From Chloroflexota bacterium (GTDB taxonomy: Bacteria; Chloroflexota; UBA6077; CF-72): a stretch of DNA of 64,000 nucleotides. The number at the start of each line of letters is the position of its first letter. Position 1 is the first letter of the stretch. The position numbers and the translations under genes are program-made. The notes beneath the pieces were generated by a model. The model had not been told where the DNA came from and did no database searches. It saw only the letters and a program-made list of their open reading frames with translations. This document shows, piece by piece, positions 1,752 to 62,700 of the stretch. The stretch covers positions 1-64,000 of the forward strand of contig JAFAOS010000132.1 of assembly GCA_019247515.1 (NCBI GenBank), written 5' to 3'.

Positions 1752-3314
1752 TCACCCGGAGTCGAACGCCATTTTGAGCACCATGTCGGCAAAGGTCCGC
1801 GACATGAAGGTGAGCACCTTCGGGTCGTTGTTGCTCAGGTTGTCGCACCAGCGGAACGGGTTATCGACACATCCGCCATCGGAAGTGCCGAGATTGCCCT
1901 CGAAGTTCCCGACCGAGCCGCCAAACAGGTTGACCTCGTCCTGGCTCTTGCAACAGTCCTGCCCGGTCAGGACGCCGCTGGCGGGAATGCCCTTCATATT
2001 GAAGTTGTAGGCGTCGGTGCCAGTTGGTGAGATGAACACGTGGTTGAGTCCGAGGGAGTTCAGGTACGAGACTGCCTCATCCCGAGCAACCGTCGACCTC
2101 TCAGGCACGGCATTGGGTTGCGCCGGCGCGGTGTTCGTGCCGCGCTCATACGGATCGGCTCCGCCTGGATCGAGGATGCCGATGAGGTAGTTCGGCGTGG
2201 CCGTCACGTCGGCATCGAGGTCGTAGGCGATGTGGTTGAGATCGTCCGGTGAGAGGTTGTTGACGTAGTAGGACGAGCCCAGCAGTCCGAGCTCCTCACC
2301 GCCGAACCAGATGAAGCGCAATTTGTTCAGCGGCGTGACGTTCTGCATCATCTGGGCGATCTCCAGGACCGTCGCCGAACCAGAGGCGTTGTCGAGCATC
2401 CCCGCGCCGTACAGCGCATCCAGGTGCGCGTCGACCACGACCACGTGGTTCGGATCGCCGCCCGGTGATTCGGCGATCACGTTGTAGTCGGGGGCGTTGG
2501 GCGTGACGATCGCCTGGATAGCGAGATTCATGACCGGCGGAGCCTGCGGCGCGTTCTGGTACTGATCGTAGAGGTCGCTGCCGATATCGAAAGAAGTGAA
2601 CGCCACCGGGATGGTCGGGACGATCGAGTTGCCCGACGCGTCCACCAGGCCGCCGCTGATCAGGCCACTGCGACCTGGATCGCCCTGGTTGAAGATGATG
2701 ACGCCGGACGCCCCCGCGGCCTGCGCGTTGATGACCTTCACCCCGAAGTTGCAGCCGCCGCGCTGGATGAGCGCGATCCGGCCCACGACGAAGCCGCTGA
2801 AGTCGGCGCTCGTGCAGCCGCTGGACGAGCTCGCACCCGGTGCTGGCGGGATGATGATGCCGCCCGCGGGCTGCAGCGCGACTCCATTCGCGGCGCCGCT
2901 GCTCTGCCCAGGGTTCCAGTCCTGCGCGGGCTCGAGCTTCCGCGGGTTCGGCGTGACCTCGGCGAAGACGGGTGGCGCCGTGAACGCGAAATAAGTGAAC
3001 GTGTAGGTCTGAATCGTGACGTTGTAGCCGGCCGCGGTCATCAACGACGCGACGTAGTCCACCGACGCTTTGTAACCAGGTTCGCCCGAGTTGCGCGACG
3101 GATGACCGTCAGCGCCGGGGTGCTGCTGGGCGATCGCCCAGAAGTTCTCCATGTGGTTCGACAGGTCGCTCTCCGTGATGCACGGCAAGAGCTTGCTCGG
3201 CGTGTCGTTCACCTGTGTCGCGCAGCTCGAAGGGTCCCCGTCCACGGGCCCCACGGCGCCGACCGCAAGCGCGGCAGCAACGAACACCGACAACACCAGT
3301 GCACGTTGCGGCAT
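1752..3314 (-). CDS. Secreted M28 family aminopeptidase with PA (protease-associated) domain
   Basis: Signal peptide MPQRALVLSVFVAAALAVGAVG; PA domain (GRIALIQRGGCNFGVKVINAQAAGASGVIIFNQ); M28 motifs VVVDAHLDALYGAGMLDNASGSATVLEIA and FIWFGGEELGLLGS. Start placed at an internal Met of the ORF. Confidence 0.85.
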   Translation of the reverse strand: MPQRALVLSVFVAAALAVGAVGPVDGDPSSCATQVNDTPSKLLPCITESDLSNHMENFWAIAQQHPGADGHPSRNSGEPGYKASVDYVASLMTAAGYNVTIQTYTFTYFAFTAPPVFAEVTPNPRKLEPAQDWNPGQSSGAANGVALQPAGGIIIPPAPGASSSSGCTSADFSGFVVGRIALIQRGGCNFGVKVINAQAAGASGVIIFNQGDPGRSGLISGGLVDASGNSIVPTIPVAFTSFDIGSDLYDQYQNAPQAPPVMNLAIQAIVTPNAPDYNVIAESPGGDPNHVVVVDAHLDALYGAGMLDNASGSATVLEIAQMMQNVTPLNKLRFIWFGGEELGLLGSSYYVNNLSPDDLNHIAYDLDADVTATPNYLIGILDPGGADPYERGTNTAPAQPNAVPERSTVARDEAVSYLNSLGLNHVFISPTGTDAYNFNMKGIPASGVLTGQDCCKSQDEVNLFGGSVGNFEGNLGTSDGGCVDNPFRWCDNLSNNDPKVLTFMSRTFADMVLKMAFDSG

Positions 3315-3384
3315 GTGCAGCCGGCCCTCCCAAAGGCGGGATGCTACGCCGCGCCCGTCGAGGAAGACAAACGCGGCGACAACG

Positions 3385-4482
3385 CTACTCCGGGACACTG
3401 CCTGGCAGTCCGAAGTGTGCGAAGACGCTTCGCTCGCCGAACCACGTGACCGCCGCCACGCCGTCGTCGCTCAGCGTCAGCACCATCAGTCCATAGGCGC
3501 GGGCGATCGCGGCGTGAGGATCCGGCAGGTAGCAGCCGAACGCCGGCTGGCCGTTAGCGCGAGTTGGCACCAGCCGCAGGTTCGCGCCACGGCGGTCGCC
3601 GCGCTCGCGGGCAATGAATCTCGCAATTGCCTCCCCACCCTGGTACTCGTAGGGCTGTGGTGGCATGGTCAACCAGGCGTCGTCGGTTAGCAGCGAGATC
3701 AGCCCTGGTGTGTCACCCTGCTCGACAGCAGCAGTGAATCGGCCGACGAGCTCACGCTCGCGCGTCGAGCCCGGCAGCGGGACGCGCTCGCGATCACCAG
3801 CTGGCAAGCGCTCGTCGAGCGTGGCACGAGCGCGTTGCAGCGCGCCCTTGACCGATGCTTCGCTGGTTTCGAGCATCTCGGCGACTTCGGTGGTCCGAAA
3901 ACCCAGCACTTCGCGGAGCACGAGCGCCGCGCGCTGACGGGGCGGCAGGCTCTGCAGGCCGGCAGCGAAGGCAAGCCCGATAGCTTCTCTGGTTTCGTAG
4001 CTCGCCTCGGGGCCCGGCGCGCTATCCGCGAGGCCCTCGAGCAATGAGTCTGGATACGGATCGAGCCACATCGGCTCGGCCATCCGTGTCGGCCTGGGTG
4101 GCTCGGACATTGAAGGTACCTCCCGCGGGCGCCGCCTCCGGTCGCGTAGCGCGTTCAGGCAGCGATTGGTGGCGATCCGGTATAGCCAGGCGCGGAGCGA
4201 GGCCCGTTCCTCGAAGCCGCCCAGTCCGCGCCAGGCCGCGAGCAGCGTCTCCTGCACGACGTCCTCGGCGTCCTGCAGCGACCCGAGGAGTCGATAGCAG
4301 TGGAGATGAAGCTCGCGCCGGTAGGGCTCGACCAGCTCCCGGAACGCGGACTCGTCCCCCGCTCGGACGCGGCTGAGAGCAGCATCGCTCACGTCCGCGT
4401 CACCACCCAACACTTGCTCACGACTCGCATCACTCCTGCTCACACCAGCCGGGCGCCAGATGGACCGTTCCGTTTTCAGCAA
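3385..4482 (-). CDS. ECF RNA polymerase sigma factor (sigma-70 family) with C-terminal SnoaL-like domain
   Basis: Region 2 FRELVEPYRRELHLHCYRLLGSLQDAEDVVQETLLAAWR, region 4 LPPRQRAALVLREVLGFRTTEVAEMLETSEASVKGALQRAR, and a C-terminal SnoaL-like extension. Confidence 0.85.
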   Translation of the reverse strand: MLKTERSIWRPAGVSRSDASREQVLGGDADVSDAALSRVRAGDESAFRELVEPYRRELHLHCYRLLGSLQDAEDVVQETLLAAWRGLGGFEERASLRAWLYRIATNRCLNALRDRRRRPREVPSMSEPPRPTRMAEPMWLDPYPDSLLEGLADSAPGPEASYETREAIGLAFAAGLQSLPPRQRAALVLREVLGFRTTEVAEMLETSEASVKGALQRARATLDERLPAGDRERVPLPGSTRERELVGRFTAAVEQGDTPGLISLLTDDAWLTMPPQPYEYQGGEAIARFIARERGDRRGANLRLVPTRANGQPAFGCYLPDPHAAIARAYGLMVLTLSDDGVAAVTWFGERSVFAHFGLPGSVPE

Positions 4483-22380: not shown

Positions 22381-22611
22381 TCAGGGTCGCCGCTGGCGGG
22401 GACGGAAGCGGATGACGTTTGGCGGCAAGGACTCAGAGCGCTCAAACTCAGGCCAGTCCGTCTGACGCAGCAGCTCCACCTGGAGCTCGAGGAGGTCGTA
22501 CAGCGGCAAACAGCGCACGGCGTGCGCGACGGCCGGTTGTTGTGCGAGGACGCGCTGCATGTCCCGAAGTCGTTGCCAGCTGGCGTCCGCGGATAGCATC
22601 AATCGATTCAC
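22381..22611 (-). CDS. Small conserved-looking protein (76 aa), last gene of the dnaE-like operon
   Basis: ATG 3 bp after the stop of the upstream gene, same strand; MNRLMLSADASWQRLRDMQRVLAQQPAVAHAVRCLPLYDLLELQVELLRQTDWPEF. Confidence 0.5.
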   Translation of the reverse strand: MNRLMLSADASWQRLRDMQRVLAQQPAVAHAVRCLPLYDLLELQVELLRQTDWPEFERSESLPPNVIRFRPRQRRP

Positions 22612-22614
22612 CGC

Positions 22615-23283
22615 TTACGCTGTCTGCCGCAAGCGACGTCCTGCCCCGCGGGTGAGACGCGGCTGGTGGGCCGCGGCGGCATCGAGCGCCTCGACCAATC
22701 GAGTCGCGGCGACACGGACCTCCGGCCGCCGCGCGCGGAGCGCGAGCTCACGGACGTAGTCGGGGTCGTGGATGACCAGATCGGCGAGCGTGCTCCCCTT
22801 GTGCGGTCCAAACTGAAGGATCATGTCACCTGTGTCGCGCATCTCATGCAACCTGCGCATCAGCTCCAGATCCAGTGGCTGAACAGGAGCGAGTTTGGGC
22901 GGCGCGTGTGCTGGGCGAGCCTGGTAGTAGCGTGCCGCGTGCGAAGCCATTGTGGCGATTCCGTTGTCGGTTCTCGTTGCTGACGGCGCGGCGGATGGAG
23001 CGGCAGGTGACTCTTCCGATCCGCCGGCCGGCACGGGTGAGGCTTGGAGTGCGAGTGGAGGTTCCGTCGCAGCTGACGTGGCCACCGGCGGCGTCTCCGG
23101 CTGGCCGACGGCGGTAGACACGGAGGTGGTGATGCCCAGCGCTCGTTCCGCCAGCAGACGCTGGAGTTGCACCGTCTCGGTATGCAGCTGCAGCAAGGCG
23201 GCCTGCTGCTGGGCCATGGCTGTCTGCTGCTGGACCAGATTTGCCAGCAGAGCCGTGAGATCCGGCGAAGCCTGATCCGTCAC
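22615..23283 (-). CDS. Coiled-coil protein with C-terminal ExoX-C-like (DUF3820-like) domain
   Basis: N-terminal NLVQQQTAMAQQQAALLQLHTETVQLQRLLAER coiled coil, Pro/Ala linker, C-terminal MILQFGPHKGSTLADLVIHDPDYVRELALRARRPEVRVAATRLVEAL. GTG start overlaps the dnaE stop (GTGA). Confidence 0.6.
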   Translation of the reverse strand: MTDQASPDLTALLANLVQQQTAMAQQQAALLQLHTETVQLQRLLAERALGITTSVSTAVGQPETPPVATSAATEPPLALQASPVPAGGSEESPAAPSAAPSATRTDNGIATMASHAARYYQARPAHAPPKLAPVQPLDLELMRRLHEMRDTGDMILQFGPHKGSTLADLVIHDPDYVRELALRARRPEVRVAATRLVEALDAAAAHQPRLTRGAGRRLRQTA

Positions 23284-26200
23284 GCGCCGAGCGCGGACCA
23301 CTCGTCCGGCGCCTGCTCCTGAATGGCGATCGCCAGCGCGCTGAGGTGTGAGGCCCGGCCGCCTTGCAGCAGGACGTCGTCGACGAAGAGCTTGCTGCCA
23401 GTAGCTTCTTCGTGGGCGAGTCTGCCGCGTGCGACCACAAAGGCGCCCTCGCGCAGCGGTGATTCACTGGTGTTGGATTCGGCGATCTGCTGATACGCAT
23501 TCGGGAACACGGCTGCTTCGATAGCGCCGGTGGCATCCGCGAAGGTGAGCCACGCCATCTTCTCGCCTTTTCGGGTGGTCCGCAGGCGGAGGTTCGTGAT
23601 AATGGCGCCCACGCTGGCGGGCGCCTTATCGGGAAAGTCGACCAGCTCGGCGATGTTCACGACGCCGAATTCCTCGACCAGCCGGTCGGCGTGCTTCTGG
23701 ACCTCCAGCGGACTGGCAGTGACAAAACCCAGATGCGCGAGCTCGTAGGCAGCCACCAGCTCCGGTGACCATTCGGCGGCGTGCAGGTATTTGATTGCCC
23801 CCGAGCTCAGGTCGTCCTCGAGTGTGGCGAGCCCGGTTGGATCGGGTTCGCCGAAGCGCAGGAGGTCGGCCAGCGACGAGTAGTATTGCTCGGCGGCCAT
23901 CAGCAGCGCGCGCGGCAGAGCCGTGAAGCCGAACGCGCCGAGCTTGATCAGCAGGACGAGGTCGTGGCGGCTGACGATGCGGCGATCGACCTTGCGACAG
24001 AAGTCGAGCAGGCTGGTGTAGCTGCCGAACGCCGTGCGCACGCCCAGGATGTGCTGGGCCGCGTCCGGACCCATGCCCCGAATGGCAGTCAGCGGTACGC
24101 GGACGGCTCCGACGGTCCCGCGACCCTTCTGTTGCGCCTCGAGCAACGCCAGATTCGAATCCTCGACGGCGAACCGGTCGCTGCTGGCATTGACGCACGG
24201 CGGCAGCAGCAACACGCCAAATCGCCGCGCCTCCTCCACCGCGGAGCCGAGGCCGTACTGGGCCGAGCCGCCGTTGTTCAGGACGTCGGCGAAGAAGCGC
24301 GCGGACGTGCTCGGGTTGACCTTCTGGCAGGCCTGGCGAAAGGCGTGCTGCGCGGTCGTCAGCGCGTGACCGTGCAGGTGCAGGTAGCCGACGTGACGCA
24401 GCAGAAGGCTCAGCAGCGCGTTGCTCTGCTCGGTCGTCCACTGATGGCGGGCGCCCGCCTCACGGATCGCGCGTTCCATCAGGTCGCGCCCGGCGAGCCG
24501 ACCGCCGCTCAGCGCGCGACGAAAGCGCTCCGCCCAGGCGTGGTCGAAGCCCAACAGTTTGACGAGTTGCACGAGCTGATCGGCGTACAGCACGAGGCCG
24601 GCCGTCGCGTCGAGCACCGTGCCCATGGCGGGGTGCGGATACGTTGGTCGTGTTCGGGCGGCGAAGCGATGGTCGAAATACGTCTGTTCGGCGTCCTGGC
24701 CGTAGACGCCCGGCTTCCAGAGAGCCAGCAGTTGCGCCAGGTCCTCGAGCGAGCGCAGCGCCTGACCCTCCTGCGAGCGCGAGCTGGCCAGCTCGTGAGC
24801 ACGCTTGAGGAGCATGCGGAAGCCCACGCTTTCGACCTGGCTAATGCACAGCGTGTCGCCGGCTTCGAGCAGTCGCCACGCCGCGGCGATGGTGGCCGGG
24901 TCAGGCTCGGACGCGTCGGCGGCGTCGCGGCTCGCGGTGGCCATCGCTGACGACGGGCTGATATCCAGGCGCACCAGGCCGAGCGATTCGAGGTCGTCCT
25001 TGGTCAGCTGCAGCGCAAGAACCGGGCTGCCCGCGTCGCCGACGTCGACCACGGCGGCATCCTCATCCAGCTCGTCGACTGGGGGTGTGGCCGCCTGGAA
25101 GTTGGCCGGCAACGCCGTCTGGTGAGCGAGGCCGGCGGCCTGCGCGCGTTCGTCGGGGACCATCGCCAGGTGGCGCGCCGTCCCGAAGACCCGTCGCCGG
25201 CCGGGTCGCCCGTCGCTGACCCACTGAGCCGGCAGCCACGCCAGCGCGCTCGGACCGTAGAACGAAAACGTGTAGGCGGAAGGGTGGGCGCCGTAGCGAT
25301 GCGGCAAGCCCTCGAGCCGACCCGCGACACGGACCAGCGTGTTGTACGGCTCGACGCCGGCGCCCGCGTCGGCAATACCCAGCTCCGGTGCGCGCGTGAT
25401 AACGCTCTCAATCGCGCCGGGGCTCGAGAGCAGCGGCACCTGGCGCGCGACCGAATTGACGCGCGGCGCCTGCATGCCGAGCGCGGCGCCCACCGCGCGC
25501 ACCGCCTGCCGCGCGCCCATGCTGACGTGCACCCCGACACGCACCGCGCGCAGATTCGGGAACTCGCCGGCCTCATGCTCGGGCAGGCCGGCGAAACCGC
25601 CTTGCTGGATGAATGCCGAGACCGCCGCCTCGTGAAGTGACGAGATCTCGAGGTCCAGGTCAGGCAGGTCCTGGCGGCCGTCGTGCGTGAACATGCGTCC
25701 GTCCAGGTCGTACTCCAGCGGGCAGAGGTCCGATAACCCGAGCGCCCAGACGACCAGGCTCGATGTCGCCGAGCCGCGCGCGGCGACGGGGAAGCCGCGT
25801 TGGGCGCAGAACCGGCCGACGTCGTGGGCGAACAGCAGCAGGTCCGCCAGTCCGCTGCTGCAGATGGTCTGAACTTCCTGGCTGGCGCGCTCCAGCACGT
25901 CGGCGGATGGCTCGCCGCGCCCGGTCTCGGCGAAACGCGCCGGCAGCCGCTCGTCGACCAGCTCCGCGAGCTGCTGCTCGCCCACCTCGCGCGCCGGCGC
26001 CAGGCCGAACAACAGCTCCGGCCCGAGCCGGCTCGATGGTTCGCCCAGTCGCTTGCGGCGGGCGAGCGGCAGCCGAAACTGACAGCGCTCCGCGATCTCG
26101 ATCGAGGCCTGCAGGGCGGCGGGCATCTGGCCGAAGGTGCGCCACATCTGCCTGGCCGACTTGAGGTAGGCCTGCGCGCGTGTTGCCTCGACGGTGAGCG

Positions 26201-27002
26201 TCGGCAGGTCCAGCCCGTCACGGCCGGGGTACCCCAGCACGCCATCGGCTCGCGTGCCGCGCCCGATTGCTTCGAGCACCTTGTGGGCGAGCGCGTCGTC
26301 GGGGTGGGCGAAGCGCACCCCACCGGTGGCTACCAGCGGTAGCTCCATGCGCTGCGCGATCGCGACCAGACCGCGGTTGACGAGTCGTTCAGCGGGGTTG
26401 CCGTGATACGCGAGCTCGAGATACAGGCGACCGGGGTAGAGGTCCATCAGCCGCCGCACCACGCCAAACGACTCGAACGGCTCGACCGGATTGGCCGCGC
26501 GCTCGATCGCCGACGAGAGCATGCCGCCACCGCCCGGCATGCCGGTGAGCGCGATGACGCCGTCGCGGTAGCGCTCCAGGTCCTGCCAATCTACACGCGG
26601 CCGGCCGCGGTCCGCGCCTGCCAGGTAGCCGCAATTGTTCAGACCGACCAGCGAGAGCCAGCCTGTTTCGTCGATCGCCAGCAGGATCAGCTCGCCCACT
26701 CGCTCGCCCCAGGTCCGGAACGCGCGTTCAGGCACGACGCGCACCCTCAACCCGACGATGTGATCGACACCGTTCCGGTCGCACGCGACGGCGGTCTTGA
26801 CCACCGAGTGCAGGCCGTAGTCGGCAATCGCGATCGCTGGCCGGGGTTGCTCGTCGGTGTCGGGACCAAGTGGATGCTGGCGCGCCAGCGTGCGGACGTA
26901 ATCCTCCGGCGTGCTCGGACTGCACCACGGCGAATACGCGGTCAGCACATCCAGGTGGACGAACCGCGCGCGTGCCGCCCGCTCGTGCGCGTCTGCGCTC
27001 AT
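23280..27002 (-). CDS. Divergent DnaE-type DNA polymerase III alpha subunit (DnaE2/ImuC-like, probably error-prone)
   Basis: PHP-like N-terminus; ARGSATSSLVVWALGLSDLCPLEYDLDGRMF...LPDLDLE (catalytic Asp pair), KDDLESLGLVRLD (third Asp), LYADQLVQLVKLLGFDHAWAERFRRALSGGR, C-terminal OB fold PASVGAIITNLRLRTTRKGEKMAWLTFADATGAIEAAVFP. Confidence 0.85.
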   Translation of the reverse strand: MSADAHERAARARFVHLDVLTAYSPWCSPSTPEDYVRTLARQHPLGPDTDEQPRPAIAIADYGLHSVVKTAVACDRNGVDHIVGLRVRVVPERAFRTWGERVGELILLAIDETGWLSLVGLNNCGYLAGADRGRPRVDWQDLERYRDGVIALTGMPGGGGMLSSAIERAANPVEPFESFGVVRRLMDLYPGRLYLELAYHGNPAERLVNRGLVAIAQRMELPLVATGGVRFAHPDDALAHKVLEAIGRGTRADGVLGYPGRDGLDLPTLTVEATRAQAYLKSARQMWRTFGQMPAALQASIEIAERCQFRLPLARRKRLGEPSSRLGPELLFGLAPAREVGEQQLAELVDERLPARFAETGRGEPSADVLERASQEVQTICSSGLADLLLFAHDVGRFCAQRGFPVAARGSATSSLVVWALGLSDLCPLEYDLDGRMFTHDGRQDLPDLDLEISSLHEAAVSAFIQQGGFAGLPEHEAGEFPNLRAVRVGVHVSMGARQAVRAVGAALGMQAPRVNSVARQVPLLSSPGAIESVITRAPELGIADAGAGVEPYNTLVRVAGRLEGLPHRYGAHPSAYTFSFYGPSALAWLPAQWVSDGRPGRRRVFGTARHLAMVPDERAQAAGLAHQTALPANFQAATPPVDELDEDAAVVDVGDAGSPVLALQLTKDDLESLGLVRLDISPSSAMATASRDAADASEPDPATIAAAWRLLEAGDTLCISQVESVGFRMLLKRAHELASSRSQEGQALRSLEDLAQLLALWKPGVYGQDAEQTYFDHRFAARTRPTYPHPAMGTVLDATAGLVLYADQLVQLVKLLGFDHAWAERFRRALSGGRLAGRDLMERAIREAGARHQWTTEQSNALLSLLLRHVGYLHLHGHALTTAQHAFRQACQKVNPSTSARFFADVLNNGGSAQYGLGSAVEEARRFGVLLLPPCVNASSDRFAVEDSNLALLEAQQKGRGTVGAVRVPLTAIRGMGPDAAQHILGVRTAFGSYTSLLDFCRKVDRRIVSRHDLVLLIKLGAFGFTALPRALLMAAEQYYSSLADLLRFGEPDPTGLATLEDDLSSGAIKYLHAAEWSPELVAAYELAHLGFVTASPLEVQKHADRLVEEFGVVNIAELVDFPDKAPASVGAIITNLRLRTTRKGEKMAWLTFADATGAIEAAVFPNAYQQIAESNTSESPLREGAFVVARGRLAHEEATGSKLFVDDVLLQGGRASHLSALAIAIQEQAPDEWSALGA

Positions 27003-27015
27003 CGCTCGGTCCGTC

Positions 27016-27330
27016 TCACGCGACCAGCGGAAGCGGATACGTGCGCAGCTGGCGTATCCGCCGGCGTTCGGTGGCCCGATGCCAACCGGTCGCGTCGTAG
27101 CGACCGCGGTACACGCCCCCCTCGAACAACGCGAGCAAAAAGTGACGTCCGTTCTTCGACCTGCGCAGCTCGGCTGTCCAGTCACCCGATTGGGTGCGCC
27201 AGGTGGCCCGATCCTGGGTGGTGAAGACGCCGAGGCGCGTGTGTATCTCCCACTCGATCGGGTTGGCGCGGCCCTCGGCCCATACGCGCCCGGCAGCCCG
27301 GGCGAGTACCTCGTCTGCGTACCTGTGCAT
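27016..27330 (-). CDS. Protein of unknown function (104 aa), first gene of the SOS-type operon
   Basis: MHRYADEVLARAAGRVWAEGRANPIEWEIHTRLGVFTTQDRATWRTQSGDWTAELRRSKNGRHFLLALFEGGVYRGRYDATGWHRATERRRIRQLRTYPLPLVA; promoter directly upstream; stop 13 bp before the dnaE-like start. Confidence 0.65.
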   Translation of the reverse strand: MHRYADEVLARAAGRVWAEGRANPIEWEIHTRLGVFTTQDRATWRTQSGDWTAELRRSKNGRHFLLALFEGGVYRGRYDATGWHRATERRRIRQLRTYPLPLVA

Positions 27331-27336
27331 GTCTAG

Positions 27337-27365
27337 AGTGTAGAACACGTGTTCTATACATGCAA
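27337..27365 (-). promoter_or_regulatory. SOS/LexA-type operator (TAGAACACGTGTTCTA, 27341-27356) within a TTGCAT-N17-TACACT promoter
   Basis: Perfect 16-bp palindrome with GAAC-N4-GTTC core; -35 TTGCAT at 27360-27365, -10 TACACT at 27337-27342 (17-bp spacer), ATG 6 nt downstream. Confidence 0.8.
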
Positions 27366-59744: not shown

Positions 59745-62700
59745 ATGACCCCACGCGGAGGCAGGGCAGCCAGCGCCGTCTCTCGTCGAGACTTCATCAA
59801 GTTGTCCGGCGTGGGCGGAGCTCTCGGCACACTCGCCGGCCTGGGTGCGAGCCTCGCCCCGGCTGTCGCCCACGCCACAACGTTGCGCATCCAGTCCGCC
59901 AGCGCGGTTCCCACGGTATGTCCCTACTGCGCCGTCGGCTGCGGCATGATTGCGCACGCCGTCAACGGACAGATCGTCAACATCGAAGGCAATCCCGACT
60001 CACCGGTGAACGAGGGCAACCTGTGCCCGAAGGGCGCCGCGTCGTACCAGCTGGCTGTCAACGAGCGGCGGTGGACCACCGTCAAGCACCGCGCGCCCGG
60101 TGCGGACCACTGGGAGGACATGCCCCTGGATCAGGCGATGGATCGCATCGCCGAGTTGTTCAAGCAAACGCGTGACGCCACCTTCCAGGAGCGGACGCCG
60201 GACGGCAAGACGCTCATGAACACCACGGCAATCTTTTCGCTCGGCGGCGCCACGATCGACAACGAATGGAACTACGCCCACTCCAAGCTGATGCGCGGTC
60301 TGGGCGTGGTCGCGGTCGAGAACCAGGCGCGTATATGACATAGCTCCAGTGTCCCCGGTCTGGGGACGAGCTTCGGGCGCGGCGCCGCCACAACGTTTTC
60401 TCGGGACGTCGCTAACTCGGACGTGATCACCGTCATGGGCTCGGACATGGCCGAGTGTCACCCGGTGGCCTTCCGCTGGGTGATGAAGGCCAAAGCCAAC
60501 GGCGCGAAGCTGATCCACGTTGACCCGCGCTTCACGCGGACCTCGGCGGTATCCGACATCTATGCACCCATCCGTGCTGGCTCGGACATCGTCTTTCTCG
60601 GCGGGTTGATCAATTGGGTCATCAGCAACGAGCGCTACTTCCGCGATTACGTCCTGACCTATACCAACGCGGCCACCATCATCTCCGACCAGTTCCGCGA
60701 CACGGAGGACCTGGCCGGGCTCTTCTCGGGGTTCAACCCGGACGCGCGCGCCTACGACGCCGGCAGCTGGCAATACGACCGCACCCAGGTCAGCCAGAAT
60801 CAACGCAGCGCGGACACACAGCAGAGCGGCGAGCTGCAGCAGCCGCCCGCCTACGGCTTCGACGCGGCGATGGCCGCCGACACCTCGCAAAACTACGACG
60901 CACTGGTGAAGGCGCTCGTGCCACCCCGCGAGAGGACCGACCCCACCCTGCAGGACCCCCGCTGCGTGTTCCAGATCTTGAGGCGTCACTACGCGCGCTA
61001 CACGCCGGACCTGGTCGAGCGCGTGACCGGCTGTCCACAGGCGGTGTTCCAGCAGGTTGCACAGAGCCTGGCCGACAACTCTGGCCCCGAGCGGACCGGC
61101 TCAATGGCTTATGCGGTCGCCTGGACCCAGCACACCACCGGCGTTCAGATCATCCGCGCGGCAGGCATCCTGCAGCAACTACTTGGCAACATCGGCCGGC
61201 CCGGTGGCGGCATTCTGGCGCTCCGCGGGCACGCCAGCATTCAGGGCTCGACCGACAATCCGACGCTGTACCACTCCATCACCGGCTACATGTCTCACCC
61301 GTCAATTCTGAAGCGACACGAGACGCTGAAGGAGTACCTGGCGACCGAGACCGTGCCGACCTCCTACTACGCTAACCAGCCCAAATTCATGGTCAGCTAT
61401 TTGAAAGCCATGTACGGCGATGCCGCCACCAGAGCTAACGACTTTGGTTACGGTTGGCATCCGCGTATCAGCGGCGATCATTCGCACATTCCCATGATGG
61501 TCAACATGGCCGACGGACAGGTGCGCGGCATGTTGGCCATCGGCCAGAACCCGGCCGTGGGTGGTCAGAACGCCGGCTTGCAGCGCCGCGCGTTGGCGAA
61601 CCTCGACTGGCTCGTGATCCGCGACTTCTTCGAAACCGAAACCGCCGCCTTCTGGTACAACTCGCCGGAGGTCAAAGGCGGCCAGCTCCAGACATCGGAC
61701 ATCAAGACCGAAGTATTTTTCCTGCCGGCCGCCCACAACGCCGAGTCCGAGGGCAGCTTTACCAATACGCACCGCCTGCTGCAGTGGCACGAGAAGGCGG
61801 CCGATCCGCCGGGTGACGCCCGCTCCGACCAGTGGTTTACGTACCAGCTTGGCAGGCGCCTCAAGCAGTTGTACGCGGGCAGCAGCGCGCCGCGCGATCA
61901 GGGCTTCCTGGCGTTGACCTGGGAGTACGATCCAGATCCCGCCGAAACGCAGTCGTGGCGCATCAAGGACGAGCCCAGCGCGTCCAGAGTGCTGAAAGAG
62001 ATCAACGGATACGACCTGACAACGGGCAAGCTTCTCAGCGGATTCGGCGCGCTCAAGGACGACGGCACCACTTCGTGCGGCAACTGGATCTACTCCGGCG
62101 TGTACCCCGACGACAGTCGCAATCTGGCGGCGAGTCGCACCCCGGACAACTACGTCAGCCTGGGCTGGGGTTTCAACTGGCCCGCGAATCGACACATCAT
62201 GTACAACCGCGCGTCTGCCCGTCCGGACGGGCAACCCTGGAGCGACCGCAAGCGCTACGTCTGGTGGGACGACGGTCAGCAGCAGTGGGTTGGCTATGAC
62301 GTGCCGGACTTCGTGGTCAACAAAGCGCCAACGACTCCGGCCGACCCCAATGGCGTCGGACTCGCCTGGCAGGCCGGTACCGACCCGTTCATCATGCACG
62401 CGGATGGCAAAGCCTGGCTGTTCGCTCCAACCGGCCTGGTCGACGGTCCACTCCCAACTCACTACGAGCCGGTCGAGTCGCCAGTTGGCAATCTGGTGTA
62501 CCCAAACCAGCAAAACAGCCCCGTCTACAAGTACTTCGATCGGCCCGATAACCCGCTCGCGCCGGCCGGCGACCCCAACTTCCCGTACGTGCTCACCACC
62601 TATCGCCTCACCGAGCACTACCTCAGTGGCACCATGAGCCGCTGGCTGCCGTGGCTGGCCGAGCTGCAGCCGGAGCTGTTCGTGGAGCTCAGTCCGGAGC

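Follow-up and report, generated by a model that had tools for sequence, protein, structure and literature searches.

What kind of polymerase stands behind a LexA-type operator in this Chloroflexota genome, and do its small neighbors take the place of ImuA and ImuB, as a preliminary description had proposed? The locus lies in the window, by which we mean the whole stretch of 64,000 nucleotides that was analyzed. The window belongs to contig C96 of a Chloroflexota metagenome-assembled genome, here called G000 (8.3 Mb in 579 contigs; completeness, 93.3; contamination, 6).

A four-gene operon under a LexA-type operator

The tight same-strand operon of four genes that had been described from the sequence was recovered in full. 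All of the open reading frames (ORFs) lie on the minus strand, with 13 bp between p104 and dnaE, a 4-bp GTGA overlap between dnaE and p228, and 3 bp between p228 and p76. The features are as follows.

27337-27365, minus strand: putative promoter read from the sequence, with -35 TTGCAT, a 17-bp spacer, and -10 TACACT; the operator lies between the hexamers
27341-27356, no strand assigned: LexA/SOS box TAGAACACGTGTTCTA, an exact palindrome whose motif is also found at other SOS genes
27016-27330, minus strand: p104, a 104-aa orphan and the first gene of the operon (ORF; GC3 of 0.81, GC2 lowest in this frame; no family or relatives)
23280-27002, minus strand: dnaE, 1240 aa, the third DnaE-type (C-family) DNA polymerase of the genome (Pfam, NCBIfam, and PDB matches, alignment, and tree)
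22615-23283, minus strand: p228, 222 aa when started at the GTG overlapping the dnaE stop codon (ORF, overlap, homologue, AlphaFold2 model, and PF20600 in relatives)
22381-22611, minus strand: p76, a 76-aa orphan and the final gene of the operon (ORF; GC3 of 0.77; no family and no ImuB-C similarity)

The GC content by codon position is coding-like for all four genes, and the dnaE frame runs for 1240 codons without interruption, with homology over its whole length. Neither the ORF list nor the family searches revealed a Y-family gene, an ImuB-C, or a RecA-like partner in the operon.

The p104 ATG lies 6 nt past the -10 hexamer (CTAGAC between them), and the p104 transcript is probably leaderless. 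The window has five perfect palindromes whose arms measure 8 bp or more, so that a palindrome of such length is not rare here and could by itself have arisen by chance; the LexA motif of TAGAACACGTGTTCTA weighs more than its symmetry. The longest perfect palindrome of the window is TGCCCGTCCGGACGGGCA, at 62216-62233. Exact GAACANNTGTTC occurs once in the window. Genome-wide, the pattern GAACANNNGTTCT was matched 27 times, compared with 5 times for a reversed control pattern, and LexA-type boxes were found upstream of lexA (GAACAGGCGTTC), dinB, imuB, and dnaE2, as well as upstream of SSB, Rad52-like, Lhr helicase, gyrase-B-type, and radical SAM genes (named by Pfam). The arrangement of -35 hexamer, operator, and -10 hexamer seen at p104 is repeated at other SOS genes of the genome, L058, L061, and L082 among them. 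With a TAGAACANNNGTTCTA-type operator at its promoter, the operon is a probable member of the LexA/SOS regulon of G000. Because the box sits in the promoter and is laid out as at other SOS genes, control of the operon by LexA is very likely, and DNA damage would be expected to derepress it. The perfect LexA-type palindrome of the earlier description was confirmed, and the LexA-type control that it proposed is supported. Two tyrosine recombinase genes of G000 (L071 and L073) also carry a LexA-type box immediately upstream, which suggests SOS-induced recombination or element mobility.

Canonical polymerases and mutasome genes elsewhere in the genome

The preliminary description had stressed that ImuA and ImuB are lacking. 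This is true of the operon, but imuB is present elsewhere in the genome; a search of G000 for ImuA yielded only RecA and one sub-threshold match. Contig C8 carries imuB (4649-3312), a small ImuB-C-like ORF, and dnaE2 (from 2935 to the contig end), the imuB and dnaE2 genes each being preceded by their LexA-type boxes. The small ORF is probably a stand-alone ImuB-C, as judged by eye and by alignment; Pfam gave no match. The cluster resembles the DnaE2X arrangement of iPolY, ImuB-C, and DnaE2 (PMC12926913). Both congeners have a dnaE2 with 84% identity to the C8 gene, and genome G004 has one with 70%. Since the C8 gene is conserved in these genomes, it is not a contaminant, and its distribution indicates that it has been passed down within the genus and order. 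A further DnaE2 fragment of G000 lies at a contig end (C334:56794-57960); between residues 585 and 978 it matches the C8 copy at 89% identity, and it is either a paralogue or a strain variant.

DnaE1 is encoded on contig C561 and DinB on contig C551. Given that DnaE1 and DnaE2 are separately encoded, the DnaE of the window adds a third type to this cell. The presence of imuB and dnaE2 with LexA boxes likewise means that ImuB has not been replaced in this organism. A canonical imuB elsewhere is what the preliminary description had named as telling against its proposal; no ImuA was found in the genome.

The window DnaE is a diverged C-family protein outside DnaE1, DnaE2, and DnaE3

That the second gene encodes a DnaE-type protein, as first described, is beyond doubt. 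Pfam, NCBIfam, and PDB matches make C-family homology certain. PF02811, PF07733, PF17657, and PF14579 scored above their cutoffs, the OB domain (PF01336, residues 1131 to 1196) scored under its cutoff, and the PHP, core, HhH, and OB regions follow the DnaE order, as expected for a member of the C family. In the alignment, D448, D450, and D680 correspond to the catalytic residues D401, D403, and D555 of Escherichia coli, and R362-G363-S364, R709, and H760 also are retained. The window protein keeps 40 of the 70 residues that are invariant across 19 other DnaE proteins and has lost the other 30; in leave-one-out comparisons, the DnaE2 of this genome kept 80% and the remaining panel DnaEs kept 90 to 100%. 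At 57% overall retention, the chance of keeping the three named aspartates is about 0.19, which is not improbable taken alone.

The losses are extensive. D405 (E. coli numbering) is replaced by glutamate (E452) and K553 by arginine (R678), R390 and R411 are lost, the FNKSH motif is missing, as is the GKK motif of the fingers, and the PHP metal ligands are replaced, leaving a dead metal site. Residue numbering points to an insertion of about 60 residues ahead of D680. No GQxxLF clamp motif is found at the usual place after the HhH region, and the 26 residues beyond the OB fold leave no tau-binding C-terminal domain, whereas both elements are present in the full-length DnaE1 proteins of the panel. 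The aspartate at E. coli position 405 is reported to be absolutely conserved in DnaE1 to DnaE3 (PMC3919608), and the activity of a protein without it is therefore not certain. The substitution weakens the claim to a standard DnaE active site and leaves C-family homology unaffected. In another genome of the comparison (G008), the DnaE1 (L052) has an insertion of about 170 residues within the FNK/SH motif that looks like a mini-intein.

The divergence noted at the outset is pronounced: in addition to the 40-of-70 retention, the tree branch of the window DnaE measures 3.94, against a median of 0.37. The protein was placed between a DnaE2 clade (support, 100/98), from which it is excluded, and a DnaE1/3 group (100/97), a placement on which long-branch effects are possible. 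AU tests rejected its pairing with the DnaE2 of its own genome (P = 0.0003) or with the DnaE1 (P = 0.00005), and NCBIfam model PRK05672 scored 204.8 bits against a cutoff of 939. Assignment to DnaE2/ImuC was rejected on its position outside that clade, the AU test, and the PRK05672 score, with the caution that the long branch demands; assignment to the replicative DnaE1 was rejected on the AU test and the absence of the clamp motif and tau-binding domain. As it is not a DnaE2, the protein is an extra polymerase of this genome.

Strongly diverged extra DnaE copies have been set aside as unclassified, under the name DnaEX, by Timinskas et al. (PMC3919608), and the window protein would fall into this group, which is a leftover label rather than a defined family. 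It likewise is a diverged C-family extra that accompanies DnaE1 and DnaE2 and lies outside DnaE1, DnaE2, and DnaE3. The window locus differs in its SOS box, in its private operon with p104, p228, and p76, and in having lost residues described as invariant in those surveys. Since DnaEX copies are already on record (PMC3919608), its general kind is known and this variant is new.

The DnaE-based SOS mutasomes described so far contain DnaE2, whose partners are mostly RecA-like or derived from the Y family, and the DnaE2/ImuC system with ImuA and ImuB has ImuB-C/iPolY variants termed DnaE2A, DnaE2B, and DnaE2X (PMC12926913). The window locus shares with the DnaE2/ImuC system a LexA-controlled operon, an inactive PHP site, the lack of a tau-binding domain, and an apparently nonreplicative DnaE. 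Unlike that system, it has a DnaE outside the DnaE2 clade, which already contains the genome's own DnaE2, and an operon without a Y-family, ImuB-C, or RecA-like partner.

Relatives, selection, and the question of activity

Beyond ordinary DnaE similarity, we found two relatives, both of them C-terminal pieces and both within this genus; the window gene is the only full-length copy known. One lies at the start of contig C341 of a congener (G002; JAFAZN010000257.1) and is 69% identical over 160 aa. The other, on contig C1 of G000, is 62% identical and truncated with stops, most of dnaE having been lost. A sample of 400 Chloroflexota genomes contained no relative. In searches with the complete DnaE or just the OB end as the query, genome contigs gave the G002 fragment and ordinary DnaEs only, viral contigs gave no match, and plasmids and phages gave ordinary DnaEs only, at about 23 to 28% identity. 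When 157 codons from the OB end were compared with the G002 copy, dN was 0.21 and dS was 1.39 (dN/dS, about 0.15), showing that purifying selection acts on the C-terminal part of the protein. Downstream of the dnaE end in G002 (L039) lie a tyrosine recombinase gene (1508-2998) and a long ORF that overlaps it (2995-4464) and has no Pfam match.

We lean toward reading the locus as a LexA-repressed operon for an accessory, nonreplicative C-family polymerase of the DnaEX kind, additional to DnaE1 and to the ImuB/ImuB-C/DnaE2 set. Speaking for this reading are the SOS box in its shared layout, the retained catalytic aspartates and further conserved residues, the unbroken frame, the low dN/dS of the OB end, the missing clamp motif and short tail, the separate DnaE1 and DnaE2 genes, and the repeated dnaE-p228 overlap; speaking against it are the 30 lost invariant residues, D405 among them, and the lack of a second full-length copy. 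The main rival, which we consider rather unlikely, is that catalysis by the DnaE is impaired. The protein, induced in the SOS response, would then act as a scaffold or decoy that uses its HhH and OB domains to bring p228, p104, and p76, RecA, or the real DnaE2 or DinB to gaps. ImuB, a dead Y-family polymerase that serves as an adaptor, offers an analogy. The loss of D405, R390, R411, and the FNKSH and GKK motifs would fit a scaffold, as would a branch ten times the median and the fact that it is at the OB end that purifying selection can be demonstrated. However, D448, D450, and D680 are kept together with R362-G-S364, R709, and H760, and some of these should have disappeared from a site that had long been dead.

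The small proteins of the operon

p228 is linked to the window DnaE because the translational overlap recurs at a second, diverged locus of G000: the GTGA overlap of dnaE and p228 is found at both loci that have p228, the window and contig C1, where a homologue (34.6% identity; L038:7185-7883) follows the dnaE remnant. No p228 is present beside the G002 dnaE copy, and none was found in G001 or G002. The AlphaFold2 model of p228 comprises a long helix (residues 13 to 55), a disordered Pro/Ala-rich linker, and a C-terminal part predicted with confidence to be helical; a fold search returned no PDB match at an E value of ≤0.001. The ExoX-C-like label given earlier is weak for p228 alone (PF20600, ExoX-like_C; E = 0.027, 14.3 bits, curated cutoff of 26.5) but is supported by its relatives, since all 10 members of the module alignment match PF20600 (best E value, 1.5e-9). 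The p228 C terminus shares the FGxxxGxxLxxxxxxDPDYLxxL pattern of this family; it differs in having no exonuclease domain, the helix and linker described above taking up the rest of the protein. In other Chloroflexota families (L102 to L108, L110, and L112), the ExoX-like_C module forms the C terminus of J-domain-like proteins, the J domain having been recognized by eye.

p104 and p76 matched no recognized family in the family libraries, to which the search for p76 relatives was confined. For p104, its own genome gave one weak match, which overlaps an unrelated frame, the 400 Chloroflexota genomes gave three weak, chance-like matches, and plasmids and viral contigs gave none; its predicted model is poor (pLDDT, 58.6). 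Either protein as an ImuB-C was rejected (hhalign probability of about 0.1% or below), as was a defense system (no PADLOC match). The earlier suggestion that the small partners belong with this DnaE therefore stands for p228, whose overlap recurs at the diverged C1 locus, but not for p104 and p76, which have no recognized relatives.

It is improbable, in our estimate, that the operon forms a full alternative mutasome in which p104, p228, and p76 replace ImuA, ImuB, and ImuB-C for this DnaE. The tight SOS operon, the recurring dnaE-p228 overlap, the lack of an adjoining Y-family gene, and the failure to find ImuA in the genome are consistent with such a replacement. The same genome, however, has ImuB and DnaE2 with LexA boxes and a probable ImuB-C on C8, neither p104 nor p76 resembles ImuB-C or has recognized relatives, and p228 does not accompany the G002 copy; the role of stand-ins for ImuA and ImuB first proposed for the small proteins is thus not upheld. 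A young, fast-evolving or decaying passenger, for example of a mobile element, kept by chance and with no settled role, is more doubtful still: relatives confined to the genus, a C1 remnant with stops, a tyrosine recombinase next to the G002 copy, and orphan p104 and p76 would suit it, but the OB end is under selection (dN/dS of about 0.15), frames and overlaps are intact, and the phage, plasmid, and viral-contig sets gave nothing above ordinary DnaE similarity.

Proposed mode of action and significance

For the accessory polymerase that we favor, the activity, the site of action, and the roles of the partners can be proposed as follows. Upon DNA damage, LexA would leave the operator between the -35 and -10 hexamers, and the four genes would then be expressed together, with translation of p228 coupled to that of dnaE. 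Lacking PHP proofreading ligands, a clamp motif, and a tau-binding domain, the polymerase would be expected to act outside the replisome, distributively and without proofreading, at gaps or where a primer end is blocked. p228 may be an adaptor, most likely tethering the polymerase to a partner or to DNA via its coiled coil and ExoX-like_C module, and p104 and p76 may be accessory factors.

We give little credence to the larger claim that this is a new type of self-contained SOS polymerase complex, in which a DnaE with an altered site and outside DnaE1, DnaE2, and DnaE3 works with p228 and two small subunits, and with no RecA-like or Y-family partner, beside an ImuB-DnaE2 mutasome. The significance of the locus at present rests on a single full-length gene. 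An SOS DnaE outside DnaE2, eroded at many invariant positions but with its catalytic aspartates intact and with unrelated partners, would test which C-family residues are truly needed and whether damage-induced synthesis can do without Y-family adaptors. Should the window DnaE prove inactive, the C family would have its own counterpart of ImuB.
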